From a virus, in IMG/VR virus record IMGVR_UViG_3300025128_000440, positions 1 to 20,593 of that record: 20,593 nt of DNA; one strand, given 5' to 3'. The translations under genes were made by a program, and so were the position numbers. Under the pieces are notes generated by a model. The model made no database searches. It was not told the origin of the DNA and saw nothing but the letters and a program-made list of their open reading frames with translations. This document shows, one piece after another, positions 436 through 20,593 of the stretch; positions within the stretch are counted from its first letter, which is position 1; every line of letters begins with the position of its first letter.

Positions 436-1785
436 ATGGCTATAACAGATATTAATATTTCAGAAAAATTAGAAGCAGGGGCGCCTAGCATTAAATATAC
501 AGGCAACATGGATCCTAATATGGAACCTAATATGCAGGTAGCTTCCGACCCAAGTTGGGAAGCAGAATGGGAGGATGCTTACCAGAATTATAAAGCAAAA
601 CAAATTTCATTAAATCAAGAGTTTGTAGATAAAGAAACATTTATGGAGCAATATCAAAACAACATGGCTTCAGGAGGCAGAGCTCATTTCGGTCTTGGAA
701 GTATCATTAAAAAAATTACAAAACCTATTAAGAAACTTGCTAAAAGCCCTATAGGTAAAGCTGGTATATTAGGTCTAGCAGGTTTTGGTTTAGGTGGTGG
801 TTTTGGCCCAGGAGGATTTAGTTGGGGGAATCTGCCAGGAATGACAAGTGCACGGAATTTTTTTATGGGATCTCCTTTAGGTTATAAAACAGCCGGAGAT
901 GCAGTAGCTAGAAGCTCAGGTTTTTTAAGTAACATTATTCCCTCTTCAACAATGGGAAAAGTAGCTTTAGCTGGAGGTCTAGGTCTCACAGCAGCATCAG
1001 CATTTGAAGGAATGGAAGAAGATGATGTAAAAGCTTTGAGAAATAATCCAGAAGCTTTAAGAGCTCATCTAACACAATATTATAAAAACGTTAATCCCGA
1101 TAAATCCGATGAAGAAGTTTCAACATGGGTTGAAACACAAATGTATTCAACTGGTGGAAGAGTTGGGTATGCTCATGGAACTAAAGATGAAAATAAATTA
1201 ACTGAAAAACAATTAAAGGAACTCACAAAGAACTTTGAGAGAGACATGTATTATCAATATATGCCTGACAGCACAACTAGAAGATCAGGATTTCCTCCAT
1301 GGACTAAGACGAAGTTTAAAGCTAAAGGTGGAAGAATTGGTTATGCAGAAGGTAATGATGATAAAGAGGGTATAATAGAAGTAGAAATGAGTATTGCCGA
1401 CAGATGGGAAAAAATTAAAGAACTTATGAAAAAAATGGAAGAGATTAAATCAGGTAAAACAACAGCCCCTGATAAGAAAGCTCAAGGAGGTAGAATGGGT
1501 TTTGCTTATGGTCCAGACCAAACGGCTCAGGCAGCAGGGATCATGGAAGGACTTCCAACTAGAAACAATGCAGCAGGTGTCAAGGAACTGGATTTAAGAG
1601 ATAGTGGTGGATTTATTCCTCCCGTAGGTATAAAAGAAAAAGCAGATGACATTCCAGCGATGTTATCTAATAACGAATTCGTATTCACAGCCGATGCAGT
1701 AAGAGCTGCCGGGGGTGGAAGCGTTGAAAAAGGCGCTCAAGTAATGTACGATACAATGAAAAATTTAGAAAATAAGGTAGGATAA
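436..1785 (+). CDS. Putative virion structural protein with GGR-G(Y/F)A-G motif repeats
   Basis: The protein has 449 residues. A glycine-rich hydrophobic stretch (about 105-130) follows a basic helix (IIKKITKPIKKLAK). Four short GGR motifs begin near residues 80, 240, 298 and 351. The last three read GGR-(V/I/M)-G-(Y/F)-A followed by G two residues later, and they separate charged, probably helical segments. The C-terminal 60 residues form a block (GGFIPPVGIKEKADDIPAML, then NNEFVFTADAVRAAGGG) that I recall from other marine phage structural proteins. There is no clear Shine-Dalgarno sequence before ATG 436. The stop overlaps the next start (TAATG at 1783-1787), so translation is probably coupled to the next virion gene. 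A structural role is inferred from the neighbours and the C-terminal block; no exact virion position can be assigned. Confidence 0.6.
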   Translation: MAITDINISEKLEAGAPSIKYTGNMDPNMEPNMQVASDPSWEAEWEDAYQNYKAKQISLNQEFVDKETFMEQYQNNMASGGRAHFGLGSIIKKITKPIKKLAKSPIGKAGILGLAGFGLGGGFGPGGFSWGNLPGMTSARNFFMGSPLGYKTAGDAVARSSGFLSNIIPSSTMGKVALAGGLGLTAASAFEGMEEDDVKALRNNPEALRAHLTQYYKNVNPDKSDEEVSTWVETQMYSTGGRVGYAHGTKDENKLTEKQLKELTKNFERDMYYQYMPDSTTRRSGFPPWTKTKFKAKGGRIGYAEGNDDKEGIIEVEMSIADRWEKIKELMKKMEEIKSGKTTAPDKKAQGGRMGFAYGPDQTAQAAGIMEGLPTRNNAAGVKELDLRDSGGFIPPVGIKEKADDIPAMLSNNEFVFTADAVRAAGGGSVEKGAQVMYDTMKNLENKVG

Positions 1786-2597
1786 TGGCTGAACTACAAC
1801 AAGTACAACAATTACCAGCTCCATTTATTGAAGCAGCAGGTAAAACATATTTAGACGATTTAACAAAAGCAATAGGTACAACTAAAGGTATTGATCCAAC
1901 TACATTTATGGGTCAACCTTTTGTAGCTGGGCAAGACCCACTACAAACTCAAGCTTATGGTTTATCAGCTGGACTAGGAAGTTACGCTCCTTATTTACAG
2001 ACAGCAGCTGGTGCTACAGGTCCATCAGCCTATCAAGCTTACATGTCGCCGTATCAGGCAGACGTTATTAAAACTACTTTAGATGAATTCGATGTTCAAG
2101 CAGCTAAAGGTATCCCTTCCTTGGCAGCATCAGCCTATAATGCTGACGCTTATGGTGGTGGTAGAGCAGGAGTACAAAGAGCTGCCTATCAAAGTCAAAG
2201 TGATATGAACAGAGCAGCTTTACAAGCTCAACTATTACAAGCTGGATATGGCGCAGCGCAAACAGCAGCACAACAAAATTTTAAAAATCAAATGACTCTT
2301 GGACAAGCCTCTCCAGCATTAGCAGGTCAACAAATTGCAGGTTTAACAACTTTAGGTGGAGCACAACAAGCTCAGACTCAAGCTCTTCTTGATGCACAAA
2401 AACAATTAGCGTATCAACAAGCGTATCAACCATTACAAACAGCTGAAAGATTTGGAACAGGAATTGCAAGTATGATTTCTGGATACCCAGGCAGAACTGA
2501 ACAAACAGTTTCTCCTTCTCCAAGTCCAATTGGATCAGCGTTAGGAACGGGTGCAACTCTAGCCGGTATTTATAGATTAATTCAGGGAAATAACTAA
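1785..2597 (+). CDS. Ala/Gln-rich phage structural protein, possibly internal virion or ejection protein
   Basis: This 270-residue protein is low in charge and very rich in Ala, Gln, Gly and Tyr. Its centre carries YMSPYQADVI, then a long Ala-rich helix with AYGGGRAGVQRAAYQSQ, a pattern (Y-M-x-P-Y then GGxR and Ala/Gln helices) that I recognise from many marine phage virion proteins. Long amphipathic Ala/Gln helices fit proteins packed inside the capsid and ejected with DNA, such as T7 gp14, but I see no decisive match. It overlaps its neighbours by one base on both sides (TAATG), placing it in a tight four-gene structural operon. The N-terminus (QQVQQLPAPFIEAAGKTYLDDL) looks soluble; a weak hydrophobic stretch lies near the C-terminus (IGSALGTGATLAGIYRLIQG). 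Structural is likely; ejection is inference. Confidence 0.6.
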   Translation: MAELQQVQQLPAPFIEAAGKTYLDDLTKAIGTTKGIDPTTFMGQPFVAGQDPLQTQAYGLSAGLGSYAPYLQTAAGATGPSAYQAYMSPYQADVIKTTLDEFDVQAAKGIPSLAASAYNADAYGGGRAGVQRAAYQSQSDMNRAALQAQLLQAGYGAAQTAAQQNFKNQMTLGQASPALAGQQIAGLTTLGGAQQAQTQALLDAQKQLAYQQAYQPLQTAERFGTGIASMISGYPGRTEQTVSPSPSPIGSALGTGATLAGIYRLIQGNN

Positions 2598-3631
2598 TGA
2601 GTAATACATTTAGAAGACCCATGTTTCGTAGAGGTGGGGAAGCCATGACCGGTATTATGCATAACGTTACTCCTAGAGGACACTTTGCAAACAGTAACTA
2701 TAGTCAAATTTTTACAGACCAATTGAAAGAAGCAGCTGGAGATAATTATGGAGTTGATCCCTTAACTGCATGGTTACTTAGAGCTGGTCCAGCGATGATG
2801 AATGAACCTAAGAGAGGTGGAACTCTGGCTACTTTAGCTAGAGCAACTACTGGACCTACTGAACAAGCTTTGAGCGATCTATCGGCTCGAGCAAAAGCAG
2901 GGAGAGATATAAGATTAGCTGGAACTCAACTTGGAATACAGAAACAAATAGATGAAGACTTACAAAAAATAAAAGATGCAAATGCTTTAGAGAGAACTAA
3001 GATTGCTTATAGTGACAAGGATGAAGTAAGTCCTGTAGACGCTTTAATACTAGACACAGAAGACTCCTATATAAAGGCAGGAACATATACAAATAGATTT
3101 CATGCAAAAAATAGAGCAACCTATGATCATAAAATTCAACCTAATATGATAGAAAAATTTGGAGCAGAACAAGTTGTAGATGTAGAACTTGTTCCAGGTA
3201 AAGATGTTAAAGAGAAACAAAAACAAAAATTTTTTTCAAATAACATAGGAAAATACTTCTATGATATTACTGACAACACTATTAAAAAAATAATTAAAAA
3301 CCCTGAAGATCCTACAGGCAATGCATTAGCATTAGAAACTTTTGATTCAGAAACTTTATCCCCTATAGATGATCCAAGTCCTGATATTGATAGTTCAGTA
3401 AAAGAAGAGATTAAAATAACTGACTCTTCTCTACAATTTAAATTAACAAATGAACAGGCTCAAAAAGAAGCAAAAGAAAGAGGTCTTTATTTATTAAACC
3501 CTGATGATCCTAATTTCGAATACAGAAAATTATATGAGCCTAACGCTGTGACTCAAGAAGAAATAGAACTAATTGTTCGAAAAGAAAAAGGTAAACGAAA
3601 AGAAAAAGATATAGTGCAGAAAACGAGGTAA
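2597..3631 (+). CDS. Conserved marine phage protein of unknown function, putative virion component
   Basis: The protein has 344 residues and no enzymatic motif that I recognise. The N-terminus is basic and glycine-containing (FRRPMFRRGGEAMTGIM), a leader-like start I recall from other uncultured marine phage virion proteins. A segment around residues 52-90 (DPLTAWLLRAGPAMMNEPKRGGTLATL then an Ala-rich helix) is followed by a charged helix to about residue 140. A mixed, lysine- and aspartate-rich region follows, and the tail is strongly basic and helical. The start overlaps the previous stop (TAATG), and five bases separate its stop from the next gene, so it is translated with its structural neighbours. 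It could be a tail or internal scaffold-like component. The function is unknown. Confidence 0.55.
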   Translation: MSNTFRRPMFRRGGEAMTGIMHNVTPRGHFANSNYSQIFTDQLKEAAGDNYGVDPLTAWLLRAGPAMMNEPKRGGTLATLARATTGPTEQALSDLSARAKAGRDIRLAGTQLGIQKQIDEDLQKIKDANALERTKIAYSDKDEVSPVDALILDTEDSYIKAGTYTNRFHAKNRATYDHKIQPNMIEKFGAEQVVDVELVPGKDVKEKQKQKFFSNNIGKYFYDITDNTIKKIIKNPEDPTGNALALETFDSETLSPIDDPSPDIDSSVKEEIKITDSSLQFKLTNEQAQKEAKERGLYLLNPDDPNFEYRKLYEPNAVTQEEIELIVRKEKGKRKEKDIVQKTR

Positions 3632-3636
3632 GCTAA

Positions 3637-6600
3637 ATGGCTATTGTTCCTCTTAATCCCACCGAAGAAAATAATGAAGTAAGCTGGTACAAAGCTGGTG
3701 CAGCTGGAGTTGCATCTGGAGTCCTTAAAGTACCTGAAGGAATCTTTTCCTTGGCAGCAGAACTAATTGATCTAGGAGCTGATACAGATACAGCTGCCGA
3801 TGTTGAAAGATTTTTTGATAAACTTAATCCATTTGAAGAAGTAGCTGAAGAAAGAGCTATTGGTAAATTAACAGAAGCTTTAGTTCAAATTGGTATACCA
3901 GGCGCATATGGTTTTAAATTAGGACAAAGATTAGCCAGTGGCGCTATTAAAGCAAAGAAAGCTGGTAAGTATGCTAACGTCGGATCTAAAAATTCCGTTA
4001 GAGCACAAGTTAAAGCCGATAGATTAAATCAAAAAGCAGGAATGAAAAGATTTGCTGCCGGTGTAATGGGAGGAGCTGCAGGAGAAACTTTTGTAGCTGA
4101 CATAGAAGACATAGGTTCTTTTGGAGATATCTTTGACACTGGTCCAACACAATTAGATAGAGAAGAATGGACTGAAGGAGGCAGAGAAGATGCAGCGAGA
4201 AAATTATTAAATAGACTTAAGTTTGGATCAGAATCAATTTTAATTACACCATTTGTATTTGGCGCAACGACTGCAGCCAAGGGACTAGCACGACAAGGAA
4301 AAGATTTAGCTTATTCGAATTCCAAATTTTTAAGATGGGTAGATAAATATATTGGAATGCCTTTTAGACCTAGATCAGGAATGACCGAAGAAGTAGCTGA
4401 GTCTACGTGGCTAAAAGAAAATTTAATAGCTAAAGATCAATTGAGAGCAAAACAAATTGTAACTAATTTAACTAGAGAAGTCAGTAAAATATTTCCCGAC
4501 ATGCAGATCACTATGGATAAATCTTTATCTGGGGAAAAGACTGCATTCTTAAAAGAAATGAATGAACTTTTATTTGAGGGAAATATAAGAGAAGGAACTC
4601 TAGACGGAAAAAAATTAACTAAACTTTTAGACGGTTTAAAAGGAAAGAAAATAAGTAAAGATTCTAGGAAAAATATATTCGAGGGGTTAGATGCAGCCAG
4701 AAATGAATTTGCAAGATTAATAGAATTATTGGAAAAGAATACTAAAGGAGTGGTACTTAAAGACGGTGTAAAATCTATTAAAGAAATTCTTAAAGATAGA
4801 TTCAATAAGTACATTGGTAATACATATAAAATATTTGAAGACAAAGGGATATTAGGTTTTAAAAAATATGGTCCTTCGGATGAGGCTATGGCTAATGCTG
4901 TTAATTTGTTTAGAAGAATGATAGCCAAAGATAGTGGTACAACCCTTTCTGCCAATAAACCTAATCAATATTATCAAGAAGCTAAAGAAATAGTAGATGA
5001 TCTAGTTAAACAAGTGGCAGCTTCAAGTAAAAAACCTGGTCCTCTACCTGATCTTGCATACAGTCTTAAAACAGCACAGGGTCAAACGTTAAAAGAATTT
5101 GAAAAATATTCTTTTAAAGCAGCTAAAGGAAAAGGAAGTAAAGTCTTAAGAGAATTATTTGGAGAGATCCAAGACCCAAGATATTCTATTTTTAATGCTA
5201 CGACTACGCTGTCAGCTATGGGAAGAATGACAAATTATTTAGACAATCTTTATAATACTAATAAAATGATACAGGCTCCTGTAGCAGCAGGGGGAAAAGG
5301 AGAACGAGGAGCTTTCTGGAACTCAAGACAAGAAGCAATGAAAGGAACGAATAACGTTCTCGATCCAAAGGATATTGTTTCATTGGATCCTTTAATGGGC
5401 AGACTTACAAGCTTTAAAGATGAAGTAGGAGAGAAATTACTTAATCCTTTAAAAGGAATGTATACCACACGAGCCATTTATAATGCTTTAGCAAATGCAA
5501 ATGGAATAACAGGTGGATTAGCAGGTGTTGTTAGAGGAAGAAAGGACGCAAGTTCTGCTGAACAAATGACTATGTGGTTATATAGAAACTTTTTATTGGT
5601 ACCTAAAGCCACAGCCCAACTTGCTAAAACAGTTCTATCAGTTCCAACTCATATTAGAAACTTTTTAAGTGCCGGTGCATTTGCTGGAGCTAATGGAATT
5701 CTTTTTGAAGGAATTAAAAATCCTAGAATGATGAAGGATGCATTTAGTTATGCATTAAATACTTCAGGGGTAGCTGGTTTACGTGGAAGAAAAGAAGCGT
5801 TCGAAGAATTATACAGAGAAGGAATTGAATACGGAGTATTTAATACTCAAGTTCAAATGTCAGATTTAAAAAACTTAATGAGAGATGTTAAGTGGGGCGC
5901 AGACATAGGAAATACCGATGCAATTCTAAGACCTATGTTGGCTAGACTTAAAGGAATGGGAGCCTGGGCTCAAGGGAAATATGTAGCTGAAGATGATTTT
6001 TGGAAAGGAACTACATGGTTTGTTGAAAGACACAGATATAGAAAAGCTTATGACAAAGCATTTGCCGAAGGTAAAATTCCTAGAAGAGTAACTGACAATG
6101 AAATTAAAGCTATAACAGCGAAGTTGGTTAAAAATAATGTTCCCAACTATGCATACGTGGGAGACTTTGTAAAAAATTCTAGAGTATTACCTTTTGGTAA
6201 TTTCATGTCTTTCCCATCTGAAATGATTAGAACTACTGGAAACATAGCTGAAACAGCTATGAAGGAAATGAAACATTCTAAAGCTGTTAGAGGAAGCGAT
6301 GTTACCCCTGTTGTCTGGGAGGTAGGAAAAGGATGGGTTAAGAATGATAACCCTCTTTATGAAATTGGTGCCATGAGATTAGCTGGAATGGCTACAACAT
6401 TAACTGTGGTACCAACAGCAGTCGTTGAAGGAGCTAAAGCTTTATATGATGTAAGTGAAGATGAAATAAATGCAATGCGAAGATTTGTTCCTGAGTGGTC
6501 TAAAAATTCTACCTTAGTTCCTATACGTGATGATGAAACGGGAGAGTTAAAGTATATGGATTTCAGTCATACAAATGCTTATGACATTATTGCGCGACCA

Positions 6601-7791
6601 TTTAGAACCATGTTTAATAATGTTAATGCTGGAACCGAAAATGGAGATACCCTTCTTAAATCTTTTATAACTGGTCTCGATGATGCAAGTGCTGAATTAA
6701 TGAGCCCATTCATAGCTGAATCTATTTGGACTCAAGCAATGGGAGACATTATAATGAGAGGTGGTCGAACTAAAGATGGGAGATTACTTTATACAGATCA
6801 AACTTCAGCTGGAGATAAAGCAAGAATTAGAATAGCTCACGCTTGGAAAGCTATTCAACCTGGAGGAATTGCTCAATATAAAAGATTAGGACAATCGTTG
6901 TTCGAACTTCCAACTAAAAGAGGAAAATTCCTAGAGGGTAAAACACTAGGAATGAATGATGAAGTATTAGGTTTAATGGGATTAAGACCAATATCTATTG
7001 ATCCGATGGACGCAATGGGTTTTAAAATTTCAAATTTTCAAAGTGGAATTAGAAATGCGCGAAGAGAATTTACGGGAGGCTTCTTTGGATTATTAAGAGG
7101 AGGTTCTATTGATCCAAATGATATTATAACAAGATATATTGCTTCTAATAAAGCAAGATTTGCGACTCAAAAAGAAATGTATAAAGATTTAGAAGCAGCC
7201 GGTATTCTTGGAACTAGTCGCTTAAACTTACTTAAAGCATTTAGAGAAAGACAAATGAGTCCTACTACCTTTAATAATTTAATGAAAGGTAAGTTCATGC
7301 CTTACTTCCCTTCAAAGGATATCATTGGAAGATTTAGAGAGATTGCACAGAACATAGGAGAACCCAATGCATTCTTACAAGCGCGATCAGAATTAAAAAA
7401 TCTAGAGCAGGACTATAAAAATAATTTTAATTTAGCTGAGGGTTTTGCTACCGGGGGAGCAGTAGATGGAATTAAAAGTGATGATGCAATCACTGAAGCT
7501 CTTCCTGTTCTTAAAGCTATTGATAATGACTTAAATACCTTAAGCTTAGATGATGAATGGGACATTGATGTTAAAGATTATATTGTAGAAGAACAAGAAG
7601 AAATTGTTACACCACCCTTACCTCAAGCAGTCACATCAGCTCAACCTAATCCACAAACCATCACGCAGGGCCAAGCAATGCAAGGGGCTCAAACTAATTT
7701 ATTACAAAGTGGATTGACACCAACGGAAGAAGCTTATTTAAGTAATGAAGAAAAAATAATGAGAAGAAAACAAAGAGGTATAATAACCTAA
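3637..7791 (+). CDS. Very large putative internal virion / DNA ejection protein (1384 aa)
   Basis: At 1384 residues this is the largest gene in the window. It starts at ATG 3637, about 8 bases after a GAGG sequence (3625-3628). The N-terminal 130 residues are Ala/Gly-rich and helical, with weakly hydrophobic stretches that could lie against membranes. Long charged helical regions follow. A conserved-looking central block lies around residues 645-700 (MWLYRNFLLVPKATAQLAK then VPTHIRNFLSAGAFAG). The C-terminus is acidic, then proline/glutamine-rich, and ends in LTPTEEAYLSNEEKIMRRKQ, a tail signature I recall from related phages. Near residue 1270 there is a TGG motif recalling the GGR motifs of the 436-1785 protein. 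The size, helical nature and place after an Ala/Gln-rich protein fit T7 gp15/gp16-type ejection proteins. I see no lytic transglycosylase motif. The role is inference. Confidence 0.6.
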   Translation: MAIVPLNPTEENNEVSWYKAGAAGVASGVLKVPEGIFSLAAELIDLGADTDTAADVERFFDKLNPFEEVAEERAIGKLTEALVQIGIPGAYGFKLGQRLASGAIKAKKAGKYANVGSKNSVRAQVKADRLNQKAGMKRFAAGVMGGAAGETFVADIEDIGSFGDIFDTGPTQLDREEWTEGGREDAARKLLNRLKFGSESILITPFVFGATTAAKGLARQGKDLAYSNSKFLRWVDKYIGMPFRPRSGMTEEVAESTWLKENLIAKDQLRAKQIVTNLTREVSKIFPDMQITMDKSLSGEKTAFLKEMNELLFEGNIREGTLDGKKLTKLLDGLKGKKISKDSRKNIFEGLDAARNEFARLIELLEKNTKGVVLKDGVKSIKEILKDRFNKYIGNTYKIFEDKGILGFKKYGPSDEAMANAVNLFRRMIAKDSGTTLSANKPNQYYQEAKEIVDDLVKQVAASSKKPGPLPDLAYSLKTAQGQTLKEFEKYSFKAAKGKGSKVLRELFGEIQDPRYSIFNATTTLSAMGRMTNYLDNLYNTNKMIQAPVAAGGKGERGAFWNSRQEAMKGTNNVLDPKDIVSLDPLMGRLTSFKDEVGEKLLNPLKGMYTTRAIYNALANANGITGGLAGVVRGRKDASSAEQMTMWLYRNFLLVPKATAQLAKTVLSVPTHIRNFLSAGAFAGANGILFEGIKNPRMMKDAFSYALNTSGVAGLRGRKEAFEELYREGIEYGVFNTQVQMSDLKNLMRDVKWGADIGNTDAILRPMLARLKGMGAWAQGKYVAEDDFWKGTTWFVERHRYRKAYDKAFAEGKIPRRVTDNEIKAITAKLVKNNVPNYAYVGDFVKNSRVLPFGNFMSFPSEMIRTTGNIAETAMKEMKHSKAVRGSDVTPVVWEVGKGWVKNDNPLYEIGAMRLAGMATTLTVVPTAVVEGAKALYDVSEDEINAMRRFVPEWSKNSTLVPIRDDETGELKYMDFSHTNAYDIIARPFRTMFNNVNAGTENGDTLLKSFITGLDDASAELMSPFIAESIWTQAMGDIIMRGGRTKDGRLLYTDQTSAGDKARIRIAHAWKAIQPGGIAQYKRLGQSLFELPTKRGKFLEGKTLGMNDEVLGLMGLRPISIDPMDAMGFKISNFQSGIRNARREFTGGFFGLLRGGSIDPNDIITRYIASNKARFATQKEMYKDLEAAGILGTSRLNLLKAFRERQMSPTTFNNLMKGKFMPYFPSKDIIGRFREIAQNIGEPNAFLQARSELKNLEQDYKNNFNLAEGFATGGAVDGIKSDDAITEALPVLKAIDNDLNTLSLDDEWDIDVKDYIVEEQEEIVTPPLPQAVTSAQPNPQTITQGQAMQGAQTNLLQSGLTPTEEAYLSNEEKIMRRKQRGIIT

Positions 7792-19218: not shown

Positions 19219-19533
19219 ATGGAACTAGCAAAAGCAAGAAGCACTGAAGAAATTATTAAAGACATTAAAGCTACTTTAGAATCTAAAGTAAAAGATAATG
19301 TGGCAGTTCATGGAGGAGAGATTAATTTTCTTTCTTATGAAAAAGGTATTGTAAGACTACAAATGGCTGGAGCGTGTTCAGGCTGTGCCATGAGTAAAAA
19401 AACTCTTCAAGAAGGTGTAGAAAGATTACTTACTCACTATGTTCCTGAAGTAATAGGTTTATTAAGTGAAGATGATCATGAAGCCAAACACAAAGGTTAC
19501 ACACCTTATTTTCCAAAGGAATTAAATGTCTAA
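19219..19533 (+). CDS. NifU-type Fe-S cluster scaffold domain protein
   Basis: The protein has 104 residues: essentially one NifU C-terminal-like domain, with LESKVKDNVAVHGGEINFLS, then IVRLQMAGACSGCAMSKKTL, EGVERLLTHYVPEVIGLL and a polar tail. The diagnostic CxxC (C53, C56 in GACSGC), which binds a bridging Fe-S cluster, is intact, so it is probably active. Stand-alone domains of this kind receive a cluster and pass it to client proteins. In a phage it would support host Fe-S assembly or mature an Fe-S protein during infection, an auxiliary metabolic role. It starts two bases after the preceding TAA with no strong ribosome site and overlaps the next gene. Family firm, client unknown. Confidence 0.92.
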   Translation: MELAKARSTEEIIKDIKATLESKVKDNVAVHGGEINFLSYEKGIVRLQMAGACSGCAMSKKTLQEGVERLLTHYVPEVIGLLSEDDHEAKHKGYTPYFPKELNV

Positions 19534-20162: not shown

Positions 20163-20304
20163 AAAGAAGAGAAAGAATAAAAAGACAAATCCAATAGCCA
20201 GATGGTTAAGATTAAGACGGTATAGGATGCTTGTAATGAAAAACAAGAAAAAGTATAATAGAAAGAAAATAAAAAATGATTTTAGTAGGGATAGGGAAAG
20301 CTAA
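20155..20304 (+). CDS. Very basic small protein (49 aa, DUF7230-like)
   Basis: From TTG 20155 (inside the last codons of the previous gene) runs a 49-residue frame that is almost half Lys and Arg, with KKTNPIARWLRLRRYRM, then KNKKKYNRKKIKNDF. NPIA followed by a basic helix and a KKxYxRKK end resembles small basic phage proteins I recall as DUF7230-like. Such peptides may bind nucleic acids. No good ribosome site precedes the TTG, an internal ATG lies at 20227, and the frame overlaps the following gene start by 29 bases, so the exact start and even its expression are uncertain. Confidence 0.45.
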   Translation: MNKKKRKNKKTNPIARWLRLRRYRMLVMKNKKKYNRKKIKNDFSRDRES

Positions 20305-20593
20305 TCATGACGAAAGTATTGCAGCCTGGATTGATGGTAAGGTTAAATATTTAAAACATGAAAGAGACTCAAATATAAAACATAATCAAGCCCCTGAAAA
20401 ATGGTATTATGAAACTCTTCTTCGATGGGGAATAAATTTAAAAGATATAAAACGTCTGTATTATACAGATAGTGGAAGAATGGGAACGCGTTTTCCCTTA
20501 AATGGCAAATTAAGCCAAACCACCTATGCTCCTACGCCTTATTCTCCTGATAATTTTATCGAAATTTGTGTTGATCATCATTTAGCTCACGCC
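20276..20593 (+). CDS. Carbamoyltransferase (NodU/TobZ family), N-terminal part, cut by window end
   Basis: From ATG 20276 the frame stays open to the window edge (106 residues visible; family members are usually about 550-600). The N-terminus MILVGIGKANHDESIAAWID is the opening strand and loop of the ASKHA/Kae1-like fold, with HDESIAA typical of the family. After a helical KHERDSNIKH stretch and DIKRLYYTDSG comes EICVDHHLAHA, whose histidines correspond to the metal/ATP-binding HxxxH-type motif of TsaD and carbamoyltransferases. The enzyme would transfer a carbamoyl group from carbamoyl phosphate, via carbamoyl-AMP, to a hydroxyl or amino group of an unknown acceptor. In phages this could modify a sugar, surface structure or nucleotide. 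The family is well supported. Confidence 0.88.
   Translation, partial: MILVGIGKANHDESIAAWIDGKVKYLKHERDSNIKHNQAPEKWYYETLLRWGINLKDIKRLYYTDSGRMGTRFPLNGKLSQTTYAPTPYSPDNFIEICVDHHLAHA

Follow-up and report, generated by a model that had tools for sequence, protein, structure and literature searches.

The window analysed here is a 20,593-base IMG/VR virus record. Its forward strand carries a cassette of four genes: protein A (449 aa, 436-1785), protein B (270 aa, 1785-2597), protein C, the third (344 aa, 2597-3631), and the large last protein D (1384 aa, 3637-7791). Tblastn searches returned two best annotated relatives of A: its orthologue HTVC027P gp82, which is 74% identical to A over residues 350-448, and a protein from phage 023Pt_psg01. 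B matches the DNA ejection protein family PHROG 4287 (E 1.1e-7), and the HTVC027P homologue of D is annotated as a putative structural protein. The order gp82, gp83, gp84, gp85, a small protein and a reverse-strand helicase is common to the window and HTVC027P, as is a glycosyltransferase gene (gp80 in HTVC027P) slightly upstream of the cassette. Thus, the PHROG assignment of B and the gp82-gp85 synteny show A to be encoded alongside recognised DNA ejection or transfer proteins. From this gene context we take the product of ORF 436-1785 to be the first protein in the ejection cassette (A-B-C-D) of a podovirus of HTVC027P type, probably with a role in the virion.

A Pfam search gave no match for A, B, C or D, and a PDB sequence search gave none for A. 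The C-terminal part of A (1591-1782, + strand), which includes DDIPAMLSNNEFVFTADAVRAAGGG, has columns that are invariant across 46 homologues. Residues 391-429 alone weakly matched a tape-measure family (PHROG 5448, E 8.6e-4) and other tape-measure PHROGs. A literature search on this C-terminal motif returned, among the matches listed, unrelated papers only. Relatives of A were found in 13 genome-collection loci, including those of Pelagibacteraceae AG-404-L13, AG-422-I02 and AH-287-O20; the remaining loci carried MAG or single-cell labels of other taxa. The host of the phage in the window is likely SAR11, and passages of two papers describe HTVC023P/HTVC027P-type phages as abundant SAR11 phages (PMC9599517, PMC11066056). 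Far downstream of the cassette, a NifU-like iron-sulphur ORF (19219-19533) and the start of a carbamoyltransferase-like ORF (20276-20593) were recognised by eye; both are unusual phage cargo genes.

Protein A contains three copies of a glycine-rich motif on the + strand: YSTGGRVGYAHGT (residues 237-249, 1144-1182, with GGRVGYAHG at 1153), KAKGGRIGYAEGN (residues 295-307, 1318-1356, with GGRIGYAEG at 1327) and KAQGGRMGFAYGP (residues 348-360, 1477-1515, with GGRMGFAYG at 1486). The earlier note had reported GGR-x-G-(Y/F)-A-x-G at these three places, and a DNA pattern scan and protein shuffles confirmed that the copies are real. A degenerate DNA pattern for the motif matched the window exactly three times, compared with no match in 100 shuffles. 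When the residues of the 449-aa protein were shuffled 20,000 times, two or more copies never arose, and one copy arose 104 times. A fourth GGR listed in the note, at 673, does exist, but its context (GGRAHFGLGS, 673-702, + strand) has no G at +5 and it is not the same motif. It has a conserved context of its own, reading ADGGRxxFGLGS or ADGGRxQYGLGS in relatives (L001-L004). A double-glycine leader, a short N-terminal stretch of a small peptide that ends in GG, was excluded, as the motifs lie at residues 240, 298 and 351 of the 449-aa protein.

To describe the motif, we gathered 48 loci by A homology and at least 120 stretches by an exact DNA pattern for GGR[I/M]GYA, and anchored the alignment on GGRxG alone. 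The 13-residue consensus was [AYK]-A-[DNEQK]-GGR-[IVM]-G-[YFL]-A-x-G-[GTS]. Among 141 distinct instances from A proteins, position -2 was A in 82%, +4 was I/V/M in 95%, +6 was Y/F/L in 95%, +7 was A in 67% and +9 was G in 95%; the figures for I/M at +4, Y at +6 and A at +7 are inflated, since the DNA pattern required these residues, and positions -2 and +9 are free of this selection. The flanks were near-random, with at most 0.3 bits at positions -12 to -7 in the A instances. The same consensus was obtained from 36 terminase-portal instances, 13 instances in C and 35 in the interval between gp75 and A. A sister group of A proteins carries AxGG[LI] in place of the GGR form; this replacement of R by L or I indicates that the arginine is not essential everywhere. 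Judged by its sequence, the element is a short linear motif.

The G-G-R-x-G-Y/F composition resembles that of RGG boxes. An RGG-like peptide (Gly-Arg-aromatic) could keep internal proteins on the packaged DNA, and scattered helix-turn-helix matches in some carriers would agree with such a contact. However, each motif has one arginine only, the strong branched-hydrophobic preference at +4 is unlike RGG repeats, and the sister group replaces the arginine. We consider a nucleic-acid contact quite improbable.

We then surveyed 173 sources, comprising the window, the A-homology loci, four annotated phage regions and the pattern loci, and omitting L053, a duplicate taken from the record of the window itself. 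GGRxG[YFLIM] occurred in at least 176 major ORFs: at least 97 of A type, 25 in the gp75-A interval, 25 between terminase and portal, 13 of C, 4 of B, 3 of D, 2 beside B, 2 near the portal and 5 elsewhere. Among complete ORFs, it was found in 77 of 105 A proteins (28 had no strict motif), 11 of 72 C, 4 of 87 B and 1 of 43 D proteins, as well as in all four gp41-like proteins and none of three gp42-like ones. It was absent from complete ORFs of gp75 (0/91), helicase (0/16), terminase (0/7) and portal (0/5). The earlier note had named absence of the motif from other structural proteins of the phage as part of what would refute it. This check came out in favour of the note, as the motif was present in A, C and terminase-portal types, whose place in the virion is assigned from gene context. 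In the HTVC027P genome, the carriers were only gp82 and, between terminase and portal, gp41 and gp42, besides the B-type GGGREGV of gp83. We rejected GGGREGV/GGGRAGV of B as the same motif; its context is different (e.g. GAFGGGREGVQRAEF) and it forms its own family. No motif was found in the other pelagiphages HTVC010P (0/89 ORFs), HTVC011P (0/67) and HTVC008M (0/336), indicating that it belongs to the HTVC027P-type lineage and not to SAR11 phages generally.

To avoid the bias of the pattern scan towards the motif, we also drew samples without motif selection. Portal homology provided 80 loci; in 67 of them, non-redundant ORFs with a length of 150 aa or more lay upstream of the portal, 91 in all, and 34 of these contained the motif, compared with 0.50 expected from shuffles. 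Carriers in the terminase-portal interval had not been expected beforehand. In the A-homology sample, GGRxG[YFLIM] was present in 14 of 36 distinct complete A homologues (0.51 expected), and AxGG followed by R, K, L, I or V was present in 35 of the 36. Among the A ORFs sampled by D homology, the motif was present in 9 of 13.

Other short elements were observed near the portal gene. The first ORF after the terminase (e.g. L181:2901-4352 and L238:4677-5456) carries a C-terminal tag GGL[AP]xILG[VA]; this tag was found in 31 of the 91 sampled ORFs upstream of the portal, and in loci with a terminase gene all 29 such ORFs start within 150 nt of it. Some terminase-portal proteins (e.g. L178:6281-8893, L081:6849-8471 and HTVC027P gp42, L174:23405-26080) have a Tat-like [KR]RxF[LIM]K with a hydrophobic stretch after the GGR motif, as observed for 8 of 33 and 6 of 33 distinct copies in two samples. 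This stretch followed none of 134 copies in A and none of 13 in C, and the Pfam TAT_signal profile matched 1 of 52 terminase-portal members (E 0.01). Weak helix-turn-helix matches (Pfam HTH_23, E 0.014) and an HNH-like stretch recognised by eye (VDHFDKVKNNPFSNLRVI) suggest that gp42 may be a DNA-acting protein encoded beside the portal. Three small HTVC027P proteins after the portal, gp44, gp46 and gp47 (L174:28689-29880), have [FY]KxGG near their ends (VFKKGGSSK, IFKNGGKK and MYKKGGSVKKKK), which is possibly another version of the tag.

The earlier note had grouped the GGR motif with FRRGGEAM in C and FATGGAVDG in D. Both exist as described, and an aromatic residue precedes GG in each, but neither is the same element as GGRxG. 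FRRGGEAM is held by RPMFRRGG (2615-2638, + strand), a near-invariant N-terminal tag of C. RPMFRxGG occurred in 82 of 84 C homologues and, by inspection of N-termini, in all 15 of those sampled by D homology, and C is divergent among homologues outside this tag. FATGGAVDG (7444-7470, + strand) is not conserved: FATGG near the C-terminus of D had counterparts in 3 of 43 homologues, the window counted.

The same note had suggested a common signal for proteolytic processing, capsid packaging or binding to a shared partner. The recurrence of one consensus in several morphogenesis-linked proteins supports a common signal, but we found no support for proteolysis. In that case a head or host protease would cut at the GG motifs during maturation and free the helical segments. 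Processing of ejection proteins has been proposed elsewhere, with P22 gp20 cut by a host enzyme according to a part of PMC8954989, and a host protease is a possible cutter here. However, no head protease was recognised with Pfam and PHROGs among HTVC027P gp56-gp59, and for the capsid protein gp59 the match to capsid-protease profiles was confined to their capsid part. Of the options in the note, cleavage has the least support, and we regard it as improbable.

We modelled A with AlphaFold from a 46-sequence alignment. The low-confidence model (mean pLDDT 62, pTM 0.27) consists of consecutive helices with unmodelled linkers between them, and a comparison with BFVD and PDB gave no significant fold match. 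In the first part, an N-terminal helix (residues 40-78, 553-669, + strand) ends just before the first GGR, at residue 80, which is followed by a helix at 88-103. In the later part, helices at 225-237, 257-275, 320-338 and 361-371 alternate with the GGR sites at 240, 298 and 351. The claim that the GGR motifs separate helical segments was thus borne out, as far as a model of this confidence can be read. All four GGR sites have a pLDDT below 50, and so does 41% of A (182/449 residues). A model of a gp42-type protein (mean pLDDT 47) was too poor for judgement.

Copies within one protein had a median spacing of 93 residues (range 46-320, 38 spacings). Their flanks were 0.071 identical, compared with 0.059 after shuffling; the copies are therefore not a recent duplication. 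Identical residues used the same codon at 231 of 395 positions (0.58; 0.47 expected from codon usage). The unrelated flanks, together with differing codons at the other 164 positions, indicated that the motif is kept at the amino-acid level. These values bear on the idea that the motif is conserved because its DNA provides the homology at which modules are exchanged from one gene to another. Helical modules that are common to both gene clusters and adjoin GG motifs would fit such a joint, but the codon identity, the flanks and the conservation at the amino-acid level speak against it. This explanation is already disfavoured, and we hold it to be very unlikely indeed.

To see how the carriers are related, we masked the motifs and clustered the proteins by BLAST. 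A-type, C and terminase-portal proteins were largely separate, with few links. The largest cluster (120 members) contained 97 A, 19 gp75-A interval, 3 terminase-portal and 1 C proteins; the others were one cluster of 53 terminase-portal proteins, one of 11 C proteins and nine with one or two members. The links between A and terminase-portal proteins that we inspected were due to small exchangeable helical modules. One module, EYxKYxFxMxEQGLxPMSFEEF, gave 47 domain matches in 43 ORFs: 24 upstream of the portal (18 with GG close behind, a count biased by a seed made mostly of upstream-of-portal proteins picked for a following GGL), 10 in A (8 with GG), 3 in the gp75-A interval (3), 6 unlabelled (4), 2 other (2), 1 in B (0) and 1 in terminase-portal proteins (0). 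A second module, FGKPLxxLTxxE, seeded with four A proteins, matched 12 times in A and twice in terminase-portal proteins, with GG close behind in 9 and 1 of these cases, respectively. Neither module model matched A of the window, whose N-terminal helix is like the two modules by eye only.

The position of the motif between predicted helices and beside exchangeable modules is consistent with a passive hinge, that is, a glycine-rich turn between helical modules that serves packing, unfolding and threading through portal and tail and that no partner reads. The number of AxGG elements also rises with protein length (Spearman 0.74, n=105). This scaling fits a hinge and counts against docking, and when the length correlation is read along with the module boundaries, the two fit a hinge and docking equally well. 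What a plain hinge leaves unexplained is why unrelated proteins have I/V/M fixed at +4, Y/F/L at +6, and A at -2 and +7. The hinge is the main rival to docking and a considerable possibility, at clearly less than an even chance.

We favour, tentatively and at somewhat short of an even chance, the reading that the GGR motif is a docking (address) peptide for internal, co-ejected virion proteins, placed between interchangeable helical modules. The motif would lie in flexible linkers between these modules and be bound by a common surface inside the prohead. Such binding would recruit or order the internal co-ejected proteins, namely A, in some cases C, and the carriers from the terminase-portal interval. 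The flexible glycine linkers would also make it possible for the chains to unfold and be threaded out along with the DNA. The motif, its consensus, its distribution over genes and its place between predicted helices are observed; we infer the presence of the carriers in the virion and their ejection, as well as a common partner and its binding by the motif.

Several observations point to docking. Non-glycine side chains are fixed in unrelated proteins at linker positions, the copy number is variable, and carriers are restricted to two morphogenetic gene clusters. The same consensus, including A at -2, I/V/M at +4, Y/F/L at +6 and G at +9, recurs in three gene slots. The motif is strongly enriched without motif selection and absent from gp75, helicase, terminase and portal; the carriers are otherwise unrelated apart from helical modules, and B is in an ejection family. 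Against docking stand the replacement of R in the sister group, the A proteins with no strict motif and the co-variation result. Motifs in different proteins of one locus were identical at +4 in 21 of 60 cases, compared with 31.4 by permutation, in the final statistics, which left out B and D. This does not support a genome-specific partner, though it would be compatible with one that recognises the invariant core alone. A literature search on pelagiphage virion proteomics yielded no proteomic record of any carrier in the virion.

A broader proposal, which we think rather unlikely, is that GGRxG[YFL]AxG, AxGG[LI], GGLAxILGV and RPMFRxGG form a lineage-wide address code that marks modular internal proteins for HTVC023P-type capsid loading and ejection into SAR11 cells. 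If it is true, possession of a tag could be enough to bring new helical modules or cargo into the particle. Many proteins of HTVC023P/HTVC027P-type phages have no assigned role, and the motif, which links two distant clusters, the terminase-portal region and the ejection cassette, offers a sequence handle for predicting internal cargo. How a podovirus chooses its internal proteins becomes testable by altering one short peptide.

Among known systems, podovirus ejection proteins (P22 gp7/gp20/gp16 and T7 gp14/gp15/gp16) are alike in forming a multi-gene cassette, to which B adds a DNA ejection family and A a helical build in the low-confidence model. Unlike them, A-D have no Pfam match and A has no PDB sequence match, and we know of no model ejection protein with a repeated 13-residue motif. 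In phage DSL-LC04 the equivalent genes are annotated as tail tape measure and DNA transfer protein. The tape measures of long-tailed phages have a C-terminal region (D-x-IPAxLSxxE[FY]V) that A matches weakly, and those of TIN4, Orchid and 1M3-16 (genes in L288-L291) pair FxxGG with DSIPAxLSxxE[FY]V like the end of A; the Hestia tape measure did not fit the strict regular expression. However, the match covers only about 40 of the 449 residues of A, and a passage of PMC9599517 describes the HTVC027P-type group as podoviruses, unlike the long-tailed tape-measure phages.

The terminase-portal carriers are similar to polyvalent/MuF-type injected proteins, as described in a part of PMC5512222, in being large, modular, variable and encoded beside the portal gene, and in their scattered helix-turn-helix matches; A itself is of another kind. 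Pfam scans of 52 terminase-portal members gave scattered single matches, mostly helix-turn-helix, with no MuF and no recurrent enzymatic domain. We therefore did not class them as polyvalent proteins, which are recognised by several enzymatic domains. We found no mention of the GGR motif in open-licence PubMed Central text. Podovirus ejection proteins with a tape-measure-like C-terminus are thus a known class, and a shared motif spanning two gene clusters appears to be undescribed in the searchable literature. Its recurrence in unrelated proteins suggests a common attachment tag or a flexible joint for proteins inside the particle.
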